64,000 bases of DNA, taken from Thermodesulfovibrio aggregans. Lineage in GTDB: Bacteria; Nitrospirota; Thermodesulfovibrionia; Thermodesulfovibrionales; Thermodesulfovibrionaceae. The translations under genes were made by a program, and so were the position numbers. The notes under the pieces are model-generated. The model was given only the letters and a program-made list of their open reading frames with translations. It was not told the origin of the DNA and searched no databases. Shown in pieces: positions 15,715 through 48,625 of the stretch (position 1 is its first letter; every line of letters begins with the position of its first letter). The DNA is taken from NCBI RefSeq assembly GCF_001514535.1, contig NZ_BCNO01000002.1, positions 298,583-362,582 on the forward strand, given 5' to 3'.

Positions 15715-16482
15715 ATGAATCCAAAAATACTGGTGTTGAACATAACAAAAGACATAAATAAACTTTTTCTTATAAATTTTGCTGCTTTGATGATGTTTTT
15801 AACTGTTGTTTTTGTAATAGGAGTTTATGACAAAAAAGAATTTGTACTGCTTACTTCTTCAGCAGCAATAGGCTCATTAACATTGAATCTATTGGTTGCT
15901 AAGATAGTTAGAAGAAAGATGGAAAAGATTATACATAATTCCTTTGAAAAAATTGAAAATCAGCTCTATTTTGATGAGTTGACATCAGTTTACAACAGAG
16001 CCACAGGAATGAACAGATTAATGGAAGAAATGGCAAGAGCAAGAAGGCATCTCAAACCACTGTCAGTAGCAATGGTTGACATAGATAATTTTAAATCCAT
16101 AAATGATAATTACGGACATCTTGCAGGAGATAGGGTTTTAAATTATGTTGCTTTACAGATTAAGAGTTTATTGAGAATAGATGATGTTGTTTCAAGATAC
16201 GGAGGAGAAGAGTTTTTAATAATACTTCCAGAAACAGATGAGATAAAAGCATTCATGGCACTTGAAAGGGTAAGAGAAAATATAGCTAAAAGACCAGTCA
16301 AAATAGGGAATGAAAAACTTTTTATAACAGTAAGCATTGGTATAGCAGAGATTGAAAACAACGATACTTTACAGGAGGCTATAAATAGAGCTGATATGGC
16401 ACTTCTTCAGGCAAAAAGAACAGGTAAAAATAAGATTGAGATTGCTTCAAAATATATTAATGAAGGAATTAAGCTGTCATAA
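15715..16482 (+). CDS. Membrane-anchored diguanylate cyclase (GGDEF protein)
   Basis: The 255-residue protein has two hydrophobic segments (about 20-40 and 45-65) and no recognisable sensor domain, followed by a GGDEF domain from about residue 88. The active-site signature is RYGGEEF (about 163-169), so catalysis of c-di-GMP synthesis from GTP is expected. An inhibitory RxxD site (RIDD) stands at the usual distance before it, implying product inhibition. The start has GGAGGGCAGG upstream. It ends tail-to-tail with recG, overlapping by 14 bases. Confidence 0.92.
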   Translation: MNPKILVLNITKDINKLFLINFAALMMFLTVVFVIGVYDKKEFVLLTSSAAIGSLTLNLLVAKIVRRKMEKIIHNSFEKIENQLYFDELTSVYNRATGMNRLMEEMARARRHLKPLSVAMVDIDNFKSINDNYGHLAGDRVLNYVALQIKSLLRIDDVVSRYGGEEFLIILPETDEIKAFMALERVRENIAKRPVKIGNEKLFITVSIGIAEIENNDTLQEAINRADMALLQAKRTGKNKIEIASKYINEGIKLS

Positions 16483-32898: not shown

Positions 32899-33120
32899 TG
32901 AAAATTCTCACTGAAAATTGCCCCACTTTTCTCATGAAAATTAACCCACCCTTCTATTAAAATAACCCCTAAAACAGGGGGAAAGGAAAGGGTGATAAGC
33001 ATGGAAGATTGGGTAAAAATAAGGAATCTTAAGAAGAAAAATCCAGAGCTTGGCACAAGAGCAATTGCTAAGCTTGTTGGGGTATCAAGAAACACTGTAA
33101 AGAAAGCTCTTAAAGCTGAT
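32899..33120 (+). mobile_element. istA: IS21-type element, left terminus with truncated istA
   Basis: From TGAAAATTCTCACTGAAAAT at 32899 the sequence matches a second copy at 46916. It then runs through a GGGGGAAAGGAAAGGGTGAT ribosome region to ATG 33001. The reading frame gives MEDWVKIRNLKKKNPELGTR and then AIAKLVGVSRNTVKKALKAD, the N-terminal helix-turn-helix of IstA transposases. Homology ends near 33120, where unrelated cargo sequence begins. About 90 percent of istA is absent. The left terminus contains two internal TGAAAATT-type repeats, as IS21 ends usually do. Confidence 0.85.
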
Positions 33121-33132
33121 TTTTATCCTCTT

Positions 33133-33771
33133 CTAATGTGCCATATCCCAGGCCAGGATATCATAGTAAATTGCAGGGACACCTGCTTCTTTAGCTACAT
33201 CCGCTATGTATCTCTGAAGTAGTAGATATTCCTCTGGTTTTTTAATAAAATTCATTGTTGCATTAGATGGTATCTTGGGATTAGTAATAAGCCTTCTCAA
33301 TCCAACTATAGAGTAGTGATCAAGGGGAACATGGAGTAAACGAATCAATCTTTGTTTAAAATCCTCATCAAGATTTAAAAGACAAGGCAGTTTCTTAAGT
33401 ACAAGATTGCACAGCTTTGAGGCAATCCCAAAACCCAGTTCTGAGCTCATTATCTTAAGCCATTCTAAACGTAGATTATCAGTCGACTCAAGAACAAATA
33501 TCTCATATTCATCTTCTGTATTGATTGTTTGGAGTCTTTCCATAGCCCCTGTTATCCACTTTGTGCCCCATTCTCTGAATACAACGGAAGGCTTCTTCGG
33601 GAGCTTTCGAAAAGCACGAAAGGTATTTCCCGAAACCCCTTCTCTTACAACACTTTCGATATTTGGAATTCTCTTAGAAAAGAAATCATTAGCCCTTATC
33701 CGAGTTTTTTCTGAACGAAGATATTCTATCAATTCATCTCTGCTGTTAAATTCATAAGGAGCCTTTGCCAT
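33133..33771 (-). CDS. Hypothetical protein (212 aa), cargo of the IS21-bounded segment
   Basis: The protein shows no signal peptide or TM segment. The N-terminal 60 residues are basic and the C-terminal half is helical and ordered-looking: LLHVPLDHYSIVGLRRLI, then EYLLLQRYIADVAKEAGVP and the terminal AIYYDILAWDMAH. The spacing of DH, W, D and H residues looks conserved rather than random, so I think it is a real enzyme or nucleic-acid-binding protein, but I cannot name a family. It points away from the AAA ATPase gene and is preceded by a tandem 18-base repeat that may control it. The stop codon lies within 13 bases of the IS21 junction. Confidence 0.65.
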   Translation of the reverse strand: MAKAPYEFNSRDELIEYLRSEKTRIRANDFFSKRIPNIESVVREGVSGNTFRAFRKLPKKPSVVFREWGTKWITGAMERLQTINTEDEYEIFVLESTDNLRLEWLKIMSSELGFGIASKLCNLVLKKLPCLLNLDEDFKQRLIRLLHVPLDHYSIVGLRRLITNPKIPSNATMNFIKKPEEYLLLQRYIADVAKEAGVPAIYYDILAWDMAH

Positions 33772-33893
33772 AGTATTCCCCCTTTATTAAGTTGTATTAG
33801 TCAAAACTTGGTCTTCCGATATTTTGGCTTTCACATCTTTTTTCTTGAAGTATAACCCATCTTTTTTTTCTCTTGGCAAGATGAACAGTACCT

Positions 33894-33929
33894 CGTTCCG
33901 TTCTATTATATCGTTCCGTTCTATTATAT
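33894..33929 (-). repeat. Tandem 18-bp direct repeat upstream of the 212-aa gene
   Basis: CGTTCCGTTCTATTATAT occurs twice in tandem without mismatch (33894-33911 and 33912-33929). On the minus strand each unit reads ATATAATAGAACGGAACG, with a TATAAT-like core and the short repeat GAACGGAAC. It lies about 125 bases upstream of the 212-aa gene, in the divergent region before the AAA gene. An operator or duplicated promoter is possible. Confidence 0.75.
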
Positions 33930-34079
33930 TTGACTGATATAAATTGTTCATAGTATAATATTTATATAGTGAATAATCTTGGACTTGAAAACGACGGCTT
34001 TTCACCTCACCAGATTTAACCTTCCTTAAATCTTTTCAAATTTATAACTTAAATACAAAAAATCAAAAAGGAGTTTTTT

Positions 34080-35300
34080 ATGAGAAAAATAGGTAGATTT
34101 CGTCAAAACTTAACACTGCCAATATCTTCTTTTATCAGAATGGTTAATTATGAAATATATCAATCAATAAAGTCATATCTGCTTAAAATCCATATGGGCT
34201 TGGTCTCAACTGATAGTTTTGAACTTGTCGATCTTTTCTCATTTACCCAACCAGGTATATTTTCCCTTCCTAACATAATGGGTTTTGATCTTTTTGAGAA
34301 TGTAATGTCAAGTGAGCCCTCTATTCTTGGTGTAATCAGATTCAGGCGTGAGAGATATTTTATCTCGTGCACTTCATTTGAGGACAGAGTTGGAAAGATT
34401 TATTGCCTCGTCATTTCAGGAGAGATAACAGGTGATTTCAGACCCGCTGACCTTGCTGAGACAATACTTAAGGAAGCTGTTTTAAACTCAGGATATTCAG
34501 GTAAGATTTTAAGATTAGTCTATGATTCAGCAAACGATAAGTTAACTTTTAAGATAATTCCTCCACCTGACATCACTCTTGAAGACATATATTTGATTGA
34601 TAAAACTGATCTGGAAGACTTTGTTGACTCTGTCAGGATTGGTGGTAGCTCATTAAGATATCTTTTCATTGGCGAACCTGGAACAGGAAAAACTGATACA
34701 ATCAGAGCAATTATTTCTGAATGCAAAAAAATAAGAGAGAATCTTACAATTTTTGTAGTTGATGCTGGATGTGGAGTTTCTCTTGAAGTTGTCTTTGAAT
34801 TTGCCGAGATTTTCAGACCTGTTCTGGTATGTATCGATGACATTGACCTGCTGGTTGGTTCAAGGGATCGCACTCTCAAAAGAGACGAACTTTCAACAGC
34901 ACTTCAGGCTCTTGATGGGTTCATAACAAAGGACAATATTTTTCTGATTGCCACCACTAACGACAGATACCTTGTTGACTTTGCCTTAAGAAGACCTGGT
35001 AGGTTTGATCTTATAATTGAGTTTGGTTGTCTTGAGGCAGAATTTTACAGTACCCTTGTAATGAGAGAATCCAGAGATGATAGACTTGCAGAAGTATTCA
35101 AAGATGAAAGAATACTAAAGCGTCTTTCTTCCTTGAAGGTAACAGGAGCATTTCTTGTAACACTGGTTAAGTATTTAAGCAGAGAAAGATTCAGGAATAT
35201 AAGATACGAGCCAGAGGCAGTGCTTTCAGCTATCAACAGGCTTTATGGCTCTTTTAAATCAGAAATTAAACATGATAAAGTAGGATTTCAGAATAGCTGA
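34080..35300 (+). CDS. AAA-family ATPase (CDC48/FtsH/BCS1-like module)
   Basis: The 406-residue protein has an N-terminal region of about 165 residues with no recognised domain, then one AAA module: Walker A GEPGTGKT (198-205), Walker B LVCIDDID (249-256), sensor 1 ATTND (291-295), and the arginine-finger segment RRPGRFD (304-310). A small helical lid follows. There is no protease, TM segment or second AAA domain. Such proteins usually remodel other proteins, and the N-terminal region probably picks the client. AAAAAGGAG precedes the ATG. It lies 12 bases before the secreted-protein gene, so they are probably cotranscribed. Confidence 0.88.
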   Translation: MRKIGRFRQNLTLPISSFIRMVNYEIYQSIKSYLLKIHMGLVSTDSFELVDLFSFTQPGIFSLPNIMGFDLFENVMSSEPSILGVIRFRRERYFISCTSFEDRVGKIYCLVISGEITGDFRPADLAETILKEAVLNSGYSGKILRLVYDSANDKLTFKIIPPPDITLEDIYLIDKTDLEDFVDSVRIGGSSLRYLFIGEPGTGKTDTIRAIISECKKIRENLTIFVVDAGCGVSLEVVFEFAEIFRPVLVCIDDIDLLVGSRDRTLKRDELSTALQALDGFITKDNIFLIATTNDRYLVDFALRRPGRFDLIIEFGCLEAEFYSTLVMRESRDDRLAEVFKDERILKRLSSLKVTGAFLVTLVKYLSRERFRNIRYEPEAVLSAINRLYGSFKSEIKHDKVGFQNS

Positions 35301-35312
35301 AGGAGGTTAAAA

Positions 35313-36026
35313 ATGAATAAAATTGTATGTTTATTTTTAATCTTATTTTTGCTTTTCAGTAAATTAGCTTTTGCATTCTCTGATATCTCTGGAGAGTACA
35401 TGATTAAACTTAAAGGAGTTGATGGAGGAATTGAAATTAAAGCAAAGGAAAAGGATAAATTTGAATTTGAACTTAACACAGTTACAGGTGGTTGGTATAC
35501 CTGTAATGTTGAAGGCGTAGCTACATTTATAGAGAAAAATAGAGCAATTTTCAGAGATGAAGAGGGATGCCTTATTACCTTCACATTTAAAAATAATCAG
35601 ATTGATTTAAAAACACAGAACTGTTCGATTTATTGTGGACTAAATGGAATTATGGATGGTAAGTATGTCAAAAAATTAAAAAAGAAGGAAAAGGATGAAT
35701 TTAAAAATAGAAACTGGGTTAAATTCGCAAGTTCAAAAGATAATGTGCTTGAACTGTTCTATGATAAAGATTCTGTTGCTCCATCTGTTGGTGGAAGTGT
35801 CTTTATTACAACAAAGCTGGTTGAAAAAGGAAATGAGATTATTATCGCAGACCTATCAGTAAATTGCGGCAGCAGGAATTCACCTCTTGATCTCATCTAC
35901 ATACTCTCAAAGAGAAAAGGTAAATGGGTTGAGGACTCTCCAACAAATCCTGAATTAAAAACCTACACTTCAGTTTACAGAAACAGTGTAGTTATTGAGA
36001 GTCTCCATGAAATAGTTTGCAGATAA
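35313..36026 (+). CDS. Secreted protein with a C-terminal surface-adhesin-E-like region
   Basis: The 237-residue protein has a signal peptide (1-21, ending KLAFA). The first half is a beta-rich domain with cysteines at CNVEG, EGCLI, QNCSIYCG. The second half starts NWVKFASSKDNVLELFYDKD and ends in paired cysteines (VNCGS and the final VCR), a pattern I associate with small surface-adhesin E-type domains. The cysteines suggest disulfides in the periplasm or outside the cell. It lies between an AAA ATPase and an acidic cytoplasmic protein, which gives no clear function. Confidence 0.75.
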   Translation: MNKIVCLFLILFLLFSKLAFAFSDISGEYMIKLKGVDGGIEIKAKEKDKFEFELNTVTGGWYTCNVEGVATFIEKNRAIFRDEEGCLITFTFKNNQIDLKTQNCSIYCGLNGIMDGKYVKKLKKKEKDEFKNRNWVKFASSKDNVLELFYDKDSVAPSVGGSVFITTKLVEKGNEIIIADLSVNCGSRNSPLDLIYILSKRKGKWVEDSPTNPELKTYTSVYRNSVVIESLHEIVCR

Positions 36027-36039
36027 AAAGGGGCAACAA

Positions 36040-37101
36040 ATGAAAGAGCGTGTTTATTTTACAGAGAAGGAGTTAAGAAAAATTGAAGAGGCAGTCTATG
36101 ACATTTTAGATGAAGATAAAGAAAATAGCCTGAATGGTGAAATGATACTTGAGGAACTCTTTAGAAAAGGATTTTCTTTTGGAAAATACAGTAAAAATCA
36201 ATTAAAGCGTATGCTGATTAAATACCTTAAAAATTGGTCAGATTATGAACTTAAAAAATTAAATTCAATTGCACAAAAAGACTTAAAAACAAATTTTAGA
36301 ATTGACAATTTACTGATACTTCAAGAATTTCTGTTTCTTGCTGTAGATGACCTGACTTTTCGGTTTAATGAGGCATTTGAGTTAGGATTTAAGCTAATAA
36401 GAGAAAGAGAGATTAGAAAATTTGTTGAAACCCTTTATCAGGGAATCTTCAATCCTACTCAGGAAGCTCTTGAAAGGACAAAAAAATTTAGAGAGGGAAT
36501 AGAAGTACTTTTTTCACAGAAAGAACCAAAAGGATTATTGGATAAGTATTTTAAAGAAAAAGACAATTTGGATGATGAAGAATTAACAGAAGAAATTTTT
36601 GAGGAACAAATATTTGAAGAGGAGAATCAAGGGGATATAGAAATTACAGACTATCATGTTTTTTCTAACATTGTTGAAAGCCTGATAGACAACAAAAATG
36701 AACTCGAAAAGGAAAAAATAAAGCAGATATTTAATGATGCTAAGGTTAATTTCGATAAAATTACAGACCATGAACTCATTTTAGAATTGTTCAATATGGC
36801 AAAAGAGGCTGTAGAGAGAGAGATAAATGAGGATGAATACATAGCCCATAAGTTTTACTCAATAGATTTCGATGATATATATAATGACTGTGTAGACATT
36901 GATGACCATCAGTCAAAGGATTGCAGGCTCGTCTATCTATTTAATCTGTGGTCTCTTTCCCAGAGACCAATTAAGAAAATGAAGTTGAAAAGGTTTGAAT
37001 TTTTTGAGTCGAGACTTAAATTTACGGTAACTGAGAAAAATCTAATTGAGTTCATAAAAGAAGAAATCAAGAAAAGAAGAGTTCGGCAAAGAAAGAGTTG
37101 A
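36040..37101 (+). CDS. Hypothetical acidic protein (353 aa)
   Basis: The protein has no signal or TM segment and is rich in Lys, Glu and Asp. It appears mostly helical, with an acidic stretch at about residues 180-205 (DDEELTEEIFEEQIFEEE) and a basic C-terminus (KKRRVRQRKS) that could touch nucleic acid. I recognise no family. It starts 13 bases after the secreted-protein gene with AAAAAGGGGC upstream of the ATG, and is the third gene of the cargo operon, closed by a terminator at 37277. Confidence 0.7.
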   Translation: MKERVYFTEKELRKIEEAVYDILDEDKENSLNGEMILEELFRKGFSFGKYSKNQLKRMLIKYLKNWSDYELKKLNSIAQKDLKTNFRIDNLLILQEFLFLAVDDLTFRFNEAFELGFKLIREREIRKFVETLYQGIFNPTQEALERTKKFREGIEVLFSQKEPKGLLDKYFKEKDNLDDEELTEEIFEEQIFEEENQGDIEITDYHVFSNIVESLIDNKNELEKEKIKQIFNDAKVNFDKITDHELILELFNMAKEAVEREINEDEYIAHKFYSIDFDDIYNDCVDIDDHQSKDCRLVYLFNLWSLSQRPIKKMKLKRFEFFESRLKFTVTEKNLIEFIKEEIKKRRVRQRKS

Positions 37102-37276
37102 ACTTGGATTAATCAATAATTATTCTGACATTTTGGATTATATCTCATTTTACAAATTATGACCTATCACTCTCTATTTTGTAGGATAAATTTTGCCATT
37201 AAACTGCATTGGTCCAGATTTAATCTGAAACTACCATTAGAGAGTTATACTAAGTATGTTATATTTTTAAAGCCAC

Positions 37277-37310
37277 AAAAGCTGTATTAATTTCAGCTTT
37301 TTCTTTTTTT
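37277..37310 (+). terminator. Rho-independent terminator of the cargo operon
   Basis: AAAAGCTG (37277-37284) and CAGCTTTT (37294-37301) form an 8-base stem with a 9-base A+T loop, followed by TTCTTTTTTT. It lies 175 bases after the 353-aa gene and just before the nucleotidyltransferase gene. Upstream, CAGATTTAATCTG at about 37216-37228 is a short palindrome of unknown role. Confidence 0.75.
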
Positions 37311-37343
37311 AACATTAAATTTTGATTGGGAGAAAAATGGAAG

Positions 37344-37931
37344 ATGAGAAAGTTAGATGAGATTTTAAATGAAGCATTCTCCAGGGAACAGAGAAAGGAT
37401 TTGATAGAACTATTCAGTTTACTGTATGCAGATGATGTGGCTTATGCAGTTGCTGGCGGAGTTGCGGTAGCTTATTGGGTTATTGGTCGTACTGCCACTA
37501 AGGGTGATATAGACATTGTTATTGAGGAAGGGCATTTTGAAGATATAGTTAAGTTTTTATACGATAGAGATTGGAGTGTGACCAGTGGCGGAGGTGTAAT
37601 AACAGGAGGCTTAATCGAAAGATTCTTTATTTCTGGGAAAAGAGGTGGTATAAAGGTTGATGTATTGATAGTTAAAGATGGATTATTTTTTGATAATTGG
37701 AGAGAGTGGGTAAAGTGGGAAGGAGTTAATGTTGCAGTTTTAAGACCAATGTGGTTAGTGCAATTTAAGTACGATTCTGGTAGAGATAAAGACAATGAGG
37801 ATTTAATACAACTTCTAAGAGTGATGAATGACGAGGAAATTAAAAAAACAGAGTACATGGCATTGGAATTTTTTGGAAAGGATGCATGGAAAGAGATTGA
37901 ACTATTAATAAAAGAGAAAGAGCTACAGTGA
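37344..37931 (+). CDS. Nucleotidyltransferase-fold protein (AbiEii/MNT-like)
   Basis: The protein has the minimal nucleotidyltransferase signature: VAGGVAVAYWVIGRTATKGD, with GG, R-x-T and then DIDIV carrying the paired acidic metal ligands, and a third acidic residue in IKVDVLIV. The C-terminal part VQFKYDSGRDKDNEDLIQLL resembles the K-x5-R-D-K-D-x-x-D motif of AbiEii-type and related toxin or unknown proteins. No AbiEi-like antitoxin is adjacent. ATG 37344 is preferred to TTG 37326, though spacing from GGGAG is long. The stop codon lies at the junction with the truncated istB, so the gene is the last cargo gene. Confidence 0.75.
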   Translation: MRKLDEILNEAFSREQRKDLIELFSLLYADDVAYAVAGGVAVAYWVIGRTATKGDIDIVIEEGHFEDIVKFLYDRDWSVTSGGGVITGGLIERFFISGKRGGIKVDVLIVKDGLFFDNWREWVKWEGVNVAVLRPMWLVQFKYDSGRDKDNEDLIQLLRVMNDEEIKKTEYMALEFFGKDAWKEIELLIKEKELQ

Positions 37932-38296
37932 CTGATATATCGCCATTTCTTGTGATGGTAAAAAATTTCAAATCCAAGCCTTATTCAAAAACATTGCCAC
38001 AATATATAGAAAGTCTGAGCAGAATAGAGCTGCTGATAATAGATGAAGTTGGATATCTTGAGATAAGCAAGGCATCAGCAGCTTTATTTTTTAAACTCAT
38101 ATCAAAGAGATATGAAAAGACCTCAACAATAATAACAACGAACAAGCCATTTGAAGAGTGGAATGAGATATTTGGAGATGAAGTAATAGCAGCAGCAATA
38201 CTTGACAGACTTCTTCATCATTGTTATCCCTTTTTTATAACAGGGAAAAGCTACAGGATGAAAGAATTATTTGAGAAAGGGGTGAAAAAAGAATAA
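37928..38296 (+). pseudogene. istB: IS21-type istB helper ATPase, C-terminal fragment
   Basis: The frame encodes the C-terminal half of an IstB ATPase: ELLIIDEVGYLEISKASA (Walker B region), TSTIITTNKPFEEWNEIF and AAAILDRLLHHCYPFFITG, then SYRMKEL. The N-terminal half with Walker A is missing; homology starts near 37940. Orientation is the same as the istA fragment at 33001. The IS21 right terminus follows at 38313. It cannot act as a transposition helper by itself. Confidence 0.88.
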
Positions 38297-38312
38297 AAAA
38301 TGATACTATATA

Positions 38313-38365
38313 GGGTGGGTCAAATTTCGTGAAAAAACCCGGGCCAATTTTCATGAAAATTTACA
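38313..38365 (+). mobile_element. IS21-type element, right terminus
   Basis: The stretch starting GGGTGGGTCAAATTTCGTGA and containing CCAATTTTCATGAAAATTTA is, read in reverse complement, similar to the left ends at 32899 and 46916 (TGAAAATT repeats followed by GACCCACCC). It lies 17 bases after the istB stop. It closes the segment opened by the left terminus at 32899, giving an IS21-bounded unit of about 5.5 kb. Confidence 0.75.
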
Positions 38366-38368
38366 CTT

Positions 38369-38401
38369 GGAAACTTGACCTCATCTAAAAGGGATTGCGA
38401 C
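38369..38401 (-). other. Single sequence resembling a CRISPR repeat
   Basis: Immediately beyond the IS21 right end the minus strand reads GTCGCAATCCCTTTTAGATG followed by AGGTCAAGTTTCC. The GTCGCAATCCCT opening, the A/T-rich middle and the 30-odd-base length resemble known CRISPR repeats that end in GGGATTGCGAC or GGGATTGAAAC when read the other way. There is only one copy, with no spacer-repeat series, so it is not annotated as an array. It may be a remnant left when the IS21 unit inserted. Confidence 0.35.
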
Positions 38402-38425
38402 TTTCAGTGTTGAGCTACCATACTT

Positions 38426-38712
38426 GTCACTGCGAGGGTGGCATTCCACCTGAAGCAGTCTCTCCATTCCTACAGAGTTGAAACGAAGAGATTGCTTCTC
38501 CCTCGCTGTGCTCGGAGTCACAATGACGAGAGAGAGGCGAGATTGCTTTGTCGCTGACACTCCTCGCAATGACAAAGTGAAAAACAACTCGCAATGACAG
38601 AAAAAGCACACAATGGCAGAAGAGAACGCTTCTTGCGATGATAAAAAAGGGCGGTTGTAATGATGGACTGTAGAGATTGCTTCGTCGCTGACATTCCTCG
38701 CAATGAGAGGGT
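38426..38712. repeat. Cluster A of a dispersed palindromic repeat
   Basis: Several degenerate copies in both orientations of a repeat built on CGCAATGAC and GAGATTGCTTCGTCGCTGA(C), for example at 38535-38573 and 38672-38707, plus GTCACTGCGAGGGTGGCATT at 38426. The same family forms clusters at 43838 and 46638. Arms such as GAGGA/TCCTC allow long RNA hairpins. Short ORFs here are translations of the repeat and not genes. This type of intergenic repeat (GTCATTGCGAGGAGCG... AGCGACGAAGCAATCTC) is widespread among bacteria. Confidence 0.85.
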
Positions 38713-38861
38713 AAAAGTCCACAATTACAAGTAAAAGGGCATGTAATTAGAAAAACTGTGTCTTACCTACGAACCATCCTTAAGGACACATAAGTGAAGC
38801 GGAGAAGTCGTAGTGTTCAGTATTTAAATTGTTTTTGGCAGTTTTAGTAGAAATTTGTGTT

Positions 38862-44219: not shown

Positions 44220-44894
44220 TTAACCGATTTCTTCGAAGTTCAGTATGTCCATGTATTCCCACTCTCTCCATCCCATTACATATATACCTGAACGGGTCGC
44301 ATACTTTATTACATTGTCAGGAAAAGTTATACTGCCAAATATAATTATCAGTTGTCTTCCTTGAGCAAACTCAGGGAAAAACTCGAAAAATCTTCGCGAC
44401 TTCTCTTTTATGGCGTCTACATCCTGAACTCGGGGAGTTGAACGAACTTCAATCATGAAGACTTTGTCTTCACAGGCTGCTATAGCATCTATTTCATAGT
44501 CCTCTCCGTTTTTTCTTCTGAACATTCGCTGCCCTTCAAGAGTAACCTCACAGTTGAAGTATTTTTTCAACACAGGACGCAAGGCTGGTGCTACAAGGTC
44601 TTCAACAATGGTTCCCATTTTTTTGGCAAGATTGCTCCACTCCTGATTTTTACGCCTGTTTTCCTCTTCCTGCCTCTTTTTGAATTCGAGCATTTCATTT
44701 TTGAATTCTCTCATTTCATTTTTGAACTCTCTCATTTCATTTTTGAACTCTCTCATCTCCTCTTTGAATGCACGAAGTTCTGCTTCAGTCCTCATCTGAG
44801 AGTTGTAAAGTTTGTTAAATTCAATTCCGACACTTCTGATGAACTCTTCTAAAACTTCTTCAAGTTTACTTACTCTTTCTTCCAATACAGGCAT
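44220..44894 (-). CDS. Coiled-coil protein with a PD-(D/E)XK nuclease-like domain (DUF3782-type)
   Basis: The 224-residue protein has an N-terminal coiled coil (about 1-85) including four near-identical seven-residue units EMREFKN, and a C-terminal nuclease-like domain: GTIVEDLVAPALRPVL, then YEIDAIAACEDKVFMIEVRS (about 137-156) holding the D and E-x-R form of the D-E-x-K site. The E-V-R in place of E-x-K may weaken or abolish cleavage. Similar proteins are common in thermophiles and cyanobacteria and have no known role. It lies next to the CARF-HEPN gene on the same strand, separated by 105 bases. Confidence 0.75.
   Translation of the reverse strand: MPVLEERVSKLEEVLEEFIRSVGIEFNKLYNSQMRTEAELRAFKEEMREFKNEMREFKNEMREFKNEMLEFKKRQEEENRRKNQEWSNLAKKMGTIVEDLVAPALRPVLKKYFNCEVTLEGQRMFRRKNGEDYEIDAIAACEDKVFMIEVRSTPRVQDVDAIKEKSRRFFEFFPEFAQGRQLIIIFGSITFPDNVIKYATRSGIYVMGWREWEYMDILNFEEIG
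44678..44761 (-). repeat. In-frame 21-bp tandem repeat within the coiled-coil gene
   Basis: Four units of the form TTTTTGAACTCTCTCATTTCA run in tandem, encoding the seven-residue unit EMREFKN. The two central units differ by one base. The period of 21 keeps the reading frame and the heptad phase, so changes in copy number would lengthen the coiled coil by two helical turns each. Confidence 0.85.
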
Positions 44895-44999: not shown

Positions 45000-46331
45000 C
45001 TAAAATCCTATGTCTTTTAGAGCTTGTGGAAACTGTAAAGCCTGGGCAAAGTCTTTTACTCCTGCTGCTTTAAGTGCATCAGTTAAGAAGTTGTGAAATT
45101 GGTCTTTTATTTCTCTAAACTCTTCTTTTAGTATTGGCGTTAATCCATGAGCAAGTATGGAGTTATTTCTTGATTTCAGGCAGTCAAGAAGCTTATTTTT
45201 TCTCTCAAGATAGAGTTTTCCCACAGGATCATCCATACTTCCAAGTAATTCATAGCTCTTTGTAAGGGCAAGTTTCAGAATTCCGTCTTCACTATTTTTC
45301 TTGCATTCTTCTCTTAGAAACTCTATTGCTTTTTCAGTTTGAACATTGAACTTTGAATTTTGAACATCTATTTTAAGTTCGTCGCAGTTTATCTTGGAGT
45401 TATCTATTCCATAGGAAAGCTTTAGTCGTAACTGAGCAATCATCTCTATAGCTCTGTAGTATCTCGCAACGGCATCGTCGTATCTTTCCTGTTCAGCCCT
45501 TCGTTCAGCATTCATCATCAGGTCAATTACTCTCTCATATCCATGAAATGGCTCTTTCTTTCCAAGAATTTGCTTGAGCCAGAGATAATACTTTACTACC
45601 GATTTTTGAACTGGACTGTCTTTTGTAATTGCTTTCAGTATTCTTTCAAACTCCTCATAGGCACCCTCATGCTGAAATTTATCCCATAAAACAAAGGCAT
45701 AAAGTATGTTCCTTATCAGCATTATTTCATTTCGTGTTTCGTGATTCAGAGGATATTTAAGATAAGTTTTTGTTTTTTCAATAATTTCCTCGTAGTAGTA
45801 GCCTTTCATCAATGAATCGAAATAGGTTTTGTCAATTCTATAAAGGAGATTCATTTTGTTAATGGCAACTGGGAAGTCTCCGCTGTCAATTTTAGTTAGA
45901 TTGGTTCTCTGACCGGCATTAAAACAAAGTTCCCAACCTTCTTGAAAGATACTGACAAGCACCAATGCAACACTCATGGTTTTTGTACCACCAGTGTAGT
46001 TGGCAATTACTTTTATAGTTTTTTTCTCAGGAAATCTTTCGTTGATTCTACTAATCAGCTGTTTTTCTATTTCTTTAAATGTTTCGTTAAGGTCGTCAAT
46101 TATGTCCACTGGAAGAAGTATTTTTTCATATTGTTCAGATGTAAGATTACATTCTCTTACAATAATTATTTCATTGTCTTTTAACTTCTCTCCATCAACA
46201 ATTCTCTCTGATGCCACCTCTGATTTTCCTGAAGAGCAGATAAAGTAGATGAAGTCAAAGTTGGTCTCTTTAATGGCATTAACAATTGGTGCAGGACTAC
46301 CACCTACTGTAAAAACCCCAATTGTTTTCAT
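45000..46331 (-). CDS. Orphan CARF-HEPN protein, TIGR02710 family (CRISPR ancillary ribonuclease type)
   Basis: The 443-residue protein opens with a Rossmann-like CARF domain: VFTVGGSPAPIVNAI (about 6-20), FICSSGKSE, and NYTGGTKTMSVAL (about 111-123), the cyclic-oligoadenylate pocket motif. A helical linker follows, then a C-terminal HEPN-like domain with SRNNSILAHG, giving Arg388-x6-His395 of the ribonuclease site. In type III CRISPR systems such proteins are turned on by cyclic oligoadenylate from Cas10 and degrade RNA. No cas10, csm/cmr, cas6 or array is visible here. The 5' flank (46332-46637) shows no gene. Confidence 0.85.
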   Translation of the reverse strand: MKTIGVFTVGGSPAPIVNAIKETNFDFIYFICSSGKSEVASERIVDGEKLKDNEIIIVRECNLTSEQYEKILLPVDIIDDLNETFKEIEKQLISRINERFPEKKTIKVIANYTGGTKTMSVALVLVSIFQEGWELCFNAGQRTNLTKIDSGDFPVAINKMNLLYRIDKTYFDSLMKGYYYEEIIEKTKTYLKYPLNHETRNEIMLIRNILYAFVLWDKFQHEGAYEEFERILKAITKDSPVQKSVVKYYLWLKQILGKKEPFHGYERVIDLMMNAERRAEQERYDDAVARYYRAIEMIAQLRLKLSYGIDNSKINCDELKIDVQNSKFNVQTEKAIEFLREECKKNSEDGILKLALTKSYELLGSMDDPVGKLYLERKNKLLDCLKSRNNSILAHGLTPILKEEFREIKDQFHNFLTDALKAAGVKDFAQALQFPQALKDIGF

Positions 46332-46915: not shown

Positions 46916-47078
46916 TGAAAATTCTCACTGAAAATTGACCCACCCTTTTATTAAAATAATTCCTAAAACAGGGGGAAAGGAAAGGGTGATAAGCATGGAA
47001 GATTGGATAACAATAAGAAATCTTAAGAAGAAAAATTCAGAGCTCGGCAAAATAGCAATTGCAATTGCTTATTCTTGA
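46916..47078 (+). mobile_element. istA: Second IS21-type left terminus with short istA remnant
   Basis: From TGAAAATTCTCACTGAAAAT at 46916 through the ribosome region to ATG 46995 this copy closely matches the left end at 32899. The frame reads MEDWITIRNLKKKNSELGK and then departs to a stop at 47078. The internal segment present in the first copy between the two GACCCACCC-like blocks is missing here, so the termini differ by a short deletion. It is a remnant only. Confidence 0.8.
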
Positions 47079-47341: not shown

Positions 47342-48625
47342 ATGAATCGCAGAGATTTTATGAAATTAGCAGGAGCAATCACAGTAGCCACAACTGGAGG
47401 ATACACCCTCACAGAGTTGATGAAGATGGAACCCTTGGAGTTGCTGGTAAAAGAGGCAGAAGCAGCCACTATCCCAATGGCAAGGATGAATGCCTTTGCA
47501 AAGGAGTGTGTAAAGAGGAGTAGGTATGTTATAGGATACCCAAATAATCAAAACATAAACACAAAGGATTTTTACAAGTGGTATGTTGAAAGTGGACTTT
47601 GCAATATTCACATGAACAATGTAGGCAATCCATGGAAGCCCTCTGGTGCCTTAATAAATTCCCACGAGTTTGAAAGGGAGGTAATCGAGTATTTTGCTCC
47701 TTTCTTTGGCTTTAAAAAAGGAGAATACTGGGGTATTGTTACCCATAGCGGGACAGACGGTAATATGCACGGTATGTATTTTGGCGTAAAATATTTACAA
47801 GCAAAGACAAAGCAGTTACCTATAGTGTATGTATCAGAAGAGGCTCACTATTCTATAAAGAGATTGGCTGATGTGATGAACCTTGAGCTAAAGTTAATTC
47901 CAACCTTACCTATGGGGCAGATGGATGTATCTGCCTTTGAAAAAGCCCTTGATCCAACAAAGCCTGCATTAATAGTAATTGCCATTGGAACCACATTTAA
48001 AGGTGCCATTGATGACCACCCAAAGATTGCAGAGATTGTAAACAAGGTCAAGCCTATGGCAGTATATACTATGTATGATGCAGCATTATTTGGAGGTTTT
48101 TTGCCTTTTACAAAATATAGGGATATAGTCAACAGAGAAAAAATGAATTTTGATTCCATTGCAGTGAGTGGGCATAAGTTCTTTGGCTTTGATGAGCCAC
48201 TTGGTCTATTCATTACCACTATGGAGGTGTTTAATAATCAAAACCCCTTTAAGGTTAACTATCTCAATGATGCGGTACCGACAATAACATGCTCCAGGTC
48301 TGCCTTAGGGGCATTGAAATTCTGGTGGCATTTGGTGAAAAACGGTGAAAAAGAATATAAGAGACAGGCAGAGCATATCCTGTCAGTAGCCCAGTATCTC
48401 AAGAAAAGGCTTGATGAAATGAATTATCCAGCCTGGTTAAATCCCATGTCTAACACTGTTTTCTTCAAAAGACCAAGTGACTGGATAATGAAGAAGTGGG
48501 ACCTTGCCCCTGAATACGATGAGAGATTGGGAGGACCTTTAGCCCACGATGTAATTATGCAACACGAAACTGAAAAGACTGTTGATAAGTTTATAGCTGA
48601 CTTGAAGAAGGATTTAAAGAAATGA
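47342..48625 (+). CDS. PLP-dependent group II decarboxylase with a twin-arginine (Tat) leader
   Basis: The 427-residue protein starts MNRRDFMKLAGAITVATTGG, a twin-arginine motif RRDFMK followed by a hydrophobic stretch, with a possible cleavage site near AEAA (39-42). The rest is a fold-type I decarboxylase like bacterial histidine decarboxylase: GIVTHSGTDGNMHGMYFGVK, YVSEEAHYSIKRLADV, and the PLP-lysine block SGHKFFGFDEPLG (about 280-292). Export folded with PLP bound by the Tat system would place an amino-acid decarboxylase in the periplasm, which is rare. The substrate is not predictable. AAAAAAGGAGG precedes the ATG. It is followed by a serine dehydratase gene. Confidence 0.85.
   Translation: MNRRDFMKLAGAITVATTGGYTLTELMKMEPLELLVKEAEAATIPMARMNAFAKECVKRSRYVIGYPNNQNINTKDFYKWYVESGLCNIHMNNVGNPWKPSGALINSHEFEREVIEYFAPFFGFKKGEYWGIVTHSGTDGNMHGMYFGVKYLQAKTKQLPIVYVSEEAHYSIKRLADVMNLELKLIPTLPMGQMDVSAFEKALDPTKPALIVIAIGTTFKGAIDDHPKIAEIVNKVKPMAVYTMYDAALFGGFLPFTKYRDIVNREKMNFDSIAVSGHKFFGFDEPLGLFITTMEVFNNQNPFKVNYLNDAVPTITCSRSALGALKFWWHLVKNGEKEYKRQAEHILSVAQYLKKRLDEMNYPAWLNPMSNTVFFKRPSDWIMKKWDLAPEYDERLGGPLAHDVIMQHETEKTVDKFIADLKKDLKK

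Follow-up and report, generated by a model that had tools for sequence, protein, structure and literature searches.

How does a ribonuclease of the kind that type III CRISPR systems activate with cyclic oligoadenylate come to lie in DNA that holds no other part of such a system, and what could switch it on? The question is raised by a CARF-HEPN gene in the window, the whole stretch of 64 kb analysed here, which corresponds to C2:298583-362582 in a genome of 2.0 Mb in three contigs. The gene occupies the minus strand, a point absent from the earlier note, and the features on which the argument depends are as follows.

45000-46331, minus strand: TIGR02710-family CARF-HEPN ribonuclease gene, 443 aa (intact ORF, profiles, predicted fold)
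45855-46331, minus strand: CARF domain, residues 1-159, predicted cyclic-oligoadenylate sensor (structural matches)
45981-45983, minus strand: Lys117 codon in TGGTKTM (aligned to Lys94 of TTHB144 from Thermus thermophilus)
45087-45530, minus strand: predicted HEPN ribonuclease domain, residues 268-415 (PF09670)
45147-45170, minus strand: HEPN catalytic motif Arg388-x6-His395 (Arg and His in 79/79 sequences)

The enzyme is of an already known kind (TIGR02710, Csm6/Csx1-like), as the earlier note had proposed. The protein scored 154.3 bits against the TIGR02710 profile (curated cut-off 83.9) and 121.9 bits against PF09670, the Csm6 HEPN family (cut-off 27), and it is the sole match to each in the whole genome. 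The top PADLOC match was the CARF1 CARF_HEPN model (E 3.6e-122), and the score against Pfam CARF_Card1 was 22 bits, under the cut-off of 24.6. The motifs named earlier are all present with exact numbering: VGGSPAP starts at residue 9, TGGTKTM at residue 113, and RNNSILAH spans residues 388-395, in agreement with the HEPN pattern R-x4-6-H. Pfam detected no endonuclease domain of the Card1/Can2 PD-(D/E)XK type after the CARF domain, where HEPN is found instead. Lys117 of the CARF domain and Arg388 and His395 of HEPN are kept in every sequence of an alignment composed of 72 full-length homologues from 80 loci in named genomes, six sequences from the same order and TTHB144. Furthermore, the gene appears from codon comparisons to be under purifying selection, with dN/dS (NG86) of 0.13 between the genome of the window (G000) and its congener G010, where dS is near saturation, and 0.35 between G010 and a second congener, G013. 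Promoter and terminator scans gave counts at or below shuffled expectation. Literature searches on TIGR02710, Thermodesulfovibrio type III CRISPR and CARF proteins gave no published account of the gene.

The structure was predicted from the window protein together with 53 homologues taken from named genomes, and the model has a Csm6 fold with a mean pLDDT of 93.5. Loss of the CARF pocket, named in the earlier note as the outcome that would speak against its reading, did not occur in this model, and K117 is kept. In Foldseek the top match, spanning the full protein, was Csm6 of T. thermophilus with bound cA4 (E 5e-13), and VIA-align also placed it first (Z 20.7, 4.3 A, 375 residues). Residues 1-159 structurally match the CARF domains of Can2, Card1, Cam1 and Sso2081. 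The comparison with cA4- and cA6-bound structures that had been suggested thus matched the CARF fold but did not choose the ligand, since the cA6-analogue-bound Csm6 of E. italicus was a nearly equal match (Z 19.5) and the fold does not separate the two.

The gene had been called an orphan, and within the window it is one. Our own cas profiles identified no other cas gene among 66 ORFs, no CRISPR array and no array-like repeat triplet was found in the 64 kb, and genome-wide searches for RAMP (PF03787) and Cas1 (PF01867) proteins gave no match inside the window. A single Cas10-palm match there (27.1 bits, ORF 15715-16482) was ruled out as a GGEEF diguanylate cyclase. Across the genome, however, the term does not hold. 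The search for a GGDD cas10 and type III arrays recommended in the earlier note found both on contig C3, in a full type III-A locus that has a TIGR02584-family ring-nuclease gene adjoining csm1, together with csm2-5, cas6, cas1, cas2 and arrays. The C3 Csm1 carries GGDD and HD motifs and scores 651.5 bits to TIGR02578. The CARF-HEPN gene does not lie inside any type III locus; it is on C2 and csm1 on C3, and the two are separated by 124 kb or more even supposing that these contigs abut. Among the effector families compared, no Csx1, Card1, Csm6 or TIGR02710 gene was found in the flanks of this csm1. A complete GGDD operon without a recognised effector nuclease of its own supports the earlier suggestion that the enzyme acts in trans for a type III system encoded far from it.

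The III-A region holds further genes. At L017 9489-13838 (C3:31489-35838) it encodes a 1449-aa helicase-nuclease resembling the anti-phage ProA/Hhe/Mko proteins, and a 1169-aa MkoC-like relative lies beside the csm operon of the congener G015 (L200). Two ORFs of 75 aa and 99 aa (the latter ASCH-like by eye), at L017 15430-15953, separate the second array from a solo III-A repeat and are perhaps inserted in the array.

We compared 61 genomes, consisting of the window's own, 15 congeners and 45 others of the same order. TIGR02710 was above cut-off in six and Csm1 in 21, with Csm1 present in five of the six TIGR02710 carriers (p 0.016). The sixth carrier, G030, has a GGDD Cmr2 8 kb from its TIGR02710 gene, which stands between a CRISPR array on one side and cas2-cas1-cas6-ring nuclease-cmr genes on the other. 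All six carriers possess a GGDD Cas10. In G022 the TIGR02710 gene and a TIGR02584 ring-nuclease gene are separated by a 3-bp gap in a 20-kb stretch without cas genes, and csm1 is on a different contig. Within the genus, own genome included, TIGR02710 is found in four of 16 members and all four have Csm1, a co-occurrence that is not significant for Csm1 alone (p 0.115).

In the genus the gene lies outside cas loci in all four carriers, as far as the flanks could be read (G015 offers only a 5.3-kb contig). The single-contig genomes G010 and G013 hold a 68% identical orthologue, solitary beside a flavodoxin gene, at a shared site with no cas gene within about 9 kb either side; csm1 is about 130 kb from it in G010 and 17.6 kb in G013. 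In the window's genome the flavodoxin gene is at C2:289 kb, with no CARF-HEPN gene next to it. The gene has therefore used at least two sites.

Elsewhere the family is mostly CRISPR-linked. A single-protein query of genome contigs found no relatives; with an alignment as the query there were 349, and we retained 80. The fetched flank contained a cas gene or array at 66 of these 80 loci and cas10 at 40, counts that are lower bounds because the cas profiles were built from few seeds. A genome-wide Cas10-palm search covered 39 of the 40 loci without a flanking cas10 (the exception being L104, the G015 locus), and 32 of the 39 had a match at E 0.001, 26 above cut-off and 20 at E 1e-8; weak matches of this kind can be GGDEF proteins, as the family also matches E. 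coli, and many of the assemblies are metagenome-derived. Three apparent orphans, viewed with about 10 kb each side, were inspected by eye. L139 and L152 were rejected, as their neighbours look cas-like and were missed by the profiles, and L137 is apparently a true orphan. Given the prevalence of CRISPR linkage in the family, the unlinked state in the genus is unusual yet easily explained. No match was found among 50,697 phage records, and 18 of 72,556 plasmid records matched.

If the unlinked enzyme serves the csm system, it could take the place of a local effector. We read the csm1-locus flanks in all ten Csm1-positive members of the genus, calling Csx1 by PF09455 and PF22230 and testing two Card1-like proteins with Pfam (PF23400, PF09002). 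The TIGR02710 carriers G000, G010, G013 and G015 have no Csx1, Card1, Csm6 or TIGR02710 gene in these flanks, and the six members without TIGR02710 (G002, G008, G009, G011, G012 and G014) have a local Csx1, a Card1-like protein or both. A recognised local effector nuclease is thus lacking in 4/4 carriers and present in 6/6 non-carriers (Fisher p 0.005 by genome; p 0.018 by lineage, with G010 and G013 merged and G009 and G014 merged). Among the 21 Csm1-positive genomes of the order, no recognised local effector was found in four of five carriers versus six of 16 non-carriers (p 0.13), or p 0.028 when four truncated loci (G033, G034, G043 and G047) are removed. TIGR02710 and a local effector are not strictly exclusive, because in G022 a Card1-like gene is local while the TIGR02710 gene is unlinked.

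Several loci bear on how these counts are read. The G015 genome is 66% complete and its csm contig breaks off beside the ring nuclease, so an effector gene at that locus may have gone unseen. In G010 and G013 a small CARF7 protein (TIGR02619) is encoded by the csm operon and might act as an effector. In G012, csm1 is on one short contig and the Card1-like gene on another, and no local effector accompanies the second csm locus of G002. Together, the counts are suggestive of replacement of local effectors by unlinked TIGR02710 within the genus; beyond it, replacement is unproven. A further proposal, which we rate slightly below even odds, is that in this genus the III-A signalling nuclease parted from the csm operon on two or more occasions, in different places on the chromosome, with the unlinked TIGR02710 enzyme replacing local Csx1 or Card1.

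The earlier note had described a single CRISPR-repeat-like sequence about 7 kb off; it is 6.6 kb from the gene, in the following context.

38366-38401, minus strand: solo CRISPR repeat of the genome's III-A array family, an array remnant and not a working array
38402-38720, no strand assigned: REP-like block of a dispersed type, adjoining the solo repeat
37955-38365, plus strand: IS21-family 3' end (istB remnant and right end; IstB_IS21), abutting the solo repeat
46917-47062, plus strand: opposite end of that IS21-family element (left end with a fragment of istA), upstream of the ribonuclease gene
44220-44894, minus strand: 224-aa coiled-coil, PD-(D/E)XK-like gene, 105 bp downstream of the CARF-HEPN gene

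The solo repeat is identical to the C3 III-A repeat at 34 of 36 positions, with an exact 33-nt core; the core pattern reversed, as a control, gave no match in the genome. Both III-A arrays on C3 have a copy of the REP-like block, 94-95% identical, at their distal end. Blocks of this type lie beside or between CRISPR repeats at 38366-38720 in the window, at L017 3334-3592 and 15095-15449, and at L102 8132-8910; a remnant on C1 has the order repeat, spacer, repeat, block, repeat, block, in older tandem copies. The IS21 3' end in the window is 97% identical to an IS copy on C1. From the flanking IS ends and the solo repeat, the gene segment has IS21 remnants on either side and contains a remnant of a III-A array, and it is plausible that the segment moved from a CRISPR locus via such repeats.

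The IS21-family element at 32941-38365 seemingly retains the start of istA (32941-33129, 97% protein identity) and the end of istB (37955-38365), and the central transposase part has given way to other genes, two of which were named by eye as an AAA ATPase and a nucleotidyltransferase-like gene; the element is possibly a cargo-carrying, trans-mobilised IS. The PD-(D/E)XK-like gene was rejected as a partner of the ribonuclease, as it is absent beside the G010 and G013 orthologues and its family matches are weak; a 30% identical relative near the G015 csm locus has no clear role. A histidine-decarboxylase-like gene beside the CARF-HEPN gene (window 47342-48625) was found in none of 15 other genomes (nine congeners and six of the same order, with G010 and G013 left out), so the region may be a genome-specific island.

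A III-A-type solo repeat with an array-end block 6.6 kb away, in a segment flanked by IS21 remnants, is also what one might expect if a type III locus had been lost and had left the gene behind as a degraded or transient remnant, with the repeat as its trace. However, the ORF is intact with all catalytic residues retained and dN/dS below 1, G010 and G013 keep the gene at their own shared site with about 9 kb free of cas genes on each side, and the dispersed block that adjoins the solo repeat is present elsewhere too. We consider this explanation very unlikely. The location of the gene outside cas loci in the four genus members with flanks read would equally suit recruitment by a non-CRISPR signal, CBASS-like or another nucleotide, with loss of the type III role, as the earlier note had offered. 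That proposal found no support: the genome has no match to SMODS CD-NTases, in a search whose control was positive in three of 14 genomes, the pocket and catalytic residues are all as in CRISPR-linked relatives, and a GGDD Cas10 accompanies the gene in 6/6 carriers among the 61 genomes. Such a recruitment is extremely unlikely.

A nearer source of cyclic oligoadenylate could be sought on the same contig. The end of C2, about 72 kb from the CARF-HEPN gene, holds a type I-B and III-C-like cluster that includes the following gene.

C2:417303-420497 (L025 1303-4497): Csx11/Cas10c III-C-like gene (TIGR02682, 754 bits)

The profile score and the Cmr-type genes alongside (Cmr1, Cmr3, Cmr4 and Cmr6, interspersed with type I-B genes) speak for this source, but the 1064-aa Cas10c has neither GGDD nor an HD motif, and the account of III-C in PMC12669027 reports its cyclases as inactivated. 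We regard this source as the least probable of all.

Action in trans is thus the best supported reading, and the enzyme is very probably a cyclic-oligoadenylate-activated RNase of known kind that serves the distant III-A system. In support, the gene is intact with all catalytic residues, the predicted fold and purifying selection, the genome has a GGDD Cas10 and a ring-nuclease gene, the csm flanks hold no recognised effector, and unlinked and local effectors replace one another among congeners. We infer ligand, dimerisation, RNase activity and action in trans as parts of one course. Recognition of invader RNA by the type III-A Csm complex encoded on C3 would cause the GGDD cyclase of Cas10/Csm1 to make cyclic oligoadenylate, most likely cA4. 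This would diffuse to the CARF domain of a dimeric Csm6/Csx1-type effector, the product of the CARF-HEPN gene, and turn on the HEPN RNase to cut RNA without sequence specificity. The signal would then be degraded by the TIGR02584 ring nuclease encoded next to csm1; the CARF domain may contribute to this, as TTHB144 would suggest.

Surveys of type III effectors concentrate on the vicinity of cas10, and this genus provides a specific example, open to testing, of an absent effector that may be encoded elsewhere: the members in which no local effector was recognised are those with an unlinked TIGR02710 gene. A CRISPR system may, on this evidence, be served by an enzyme of this type that is encoded far from it. 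If this outsourcing is true, type III loci with a ring nuclease and no effector would draw on enzymes encoded at other places in the genome, and locus-centred surveys would overlook some of the effectors.

TTHB144 of T. thermophilus HB8 shares the TIGR02710 family and the CARF-HEPN domain order with the window protein, at about 24% identity. It is described in PMC6599890 as a cA4-activated RNase that also degrades cA4, where K94A abolished cA4 binding and activity and H368A abolished RNase activity. We assigned its gene as TTH_RS10730 on pTT27 from gene order and from T10, T11, K94 and H368 in the translation. K94 corresponds to K117 here and H368 to H395, the HEPN Arg is conserved and T11 is replaced by Ser12. 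Because K117 and H395 align with essential TTHB144 residues, cA4 is, by analogy, the likely ligand. In contrast to the unlinked window gene, the TTHB144 gene adjoins cas1 in a type III-A locus. The predicted model also matches T. thermophilus Csm6 (TTHB152; PDB 8jh1, 5fsh) end to end at 17% identity, although TTHB152 is encoded within the csm operon. Csx1 and Card1/Can2 of the congeners are likewise cyclic-oligoadenylate-activated nuclease families of type III-A loci, but they are encoded at the csm locus and have other CARF families, and the nuclease of Card1 is PD-(D/E)XK rather than HEPN.

Less ordinary than the enzyme is an unlinked effector that replaces local ones across a genus, which bears on loci described in PMC12409355. 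That survey, in which genes within 6 kb of type III loci were tested for ring nucleases, describes 31 ring-nuclease-bearing type III loci without a recognised effector and proposes that ring nucleases act in trans. The csm locus studied here likewise has a ring nuclease and no recognised local effector nuclease; unlike the loci as that survey presents them, it has an unlinked effector gene identified for it.
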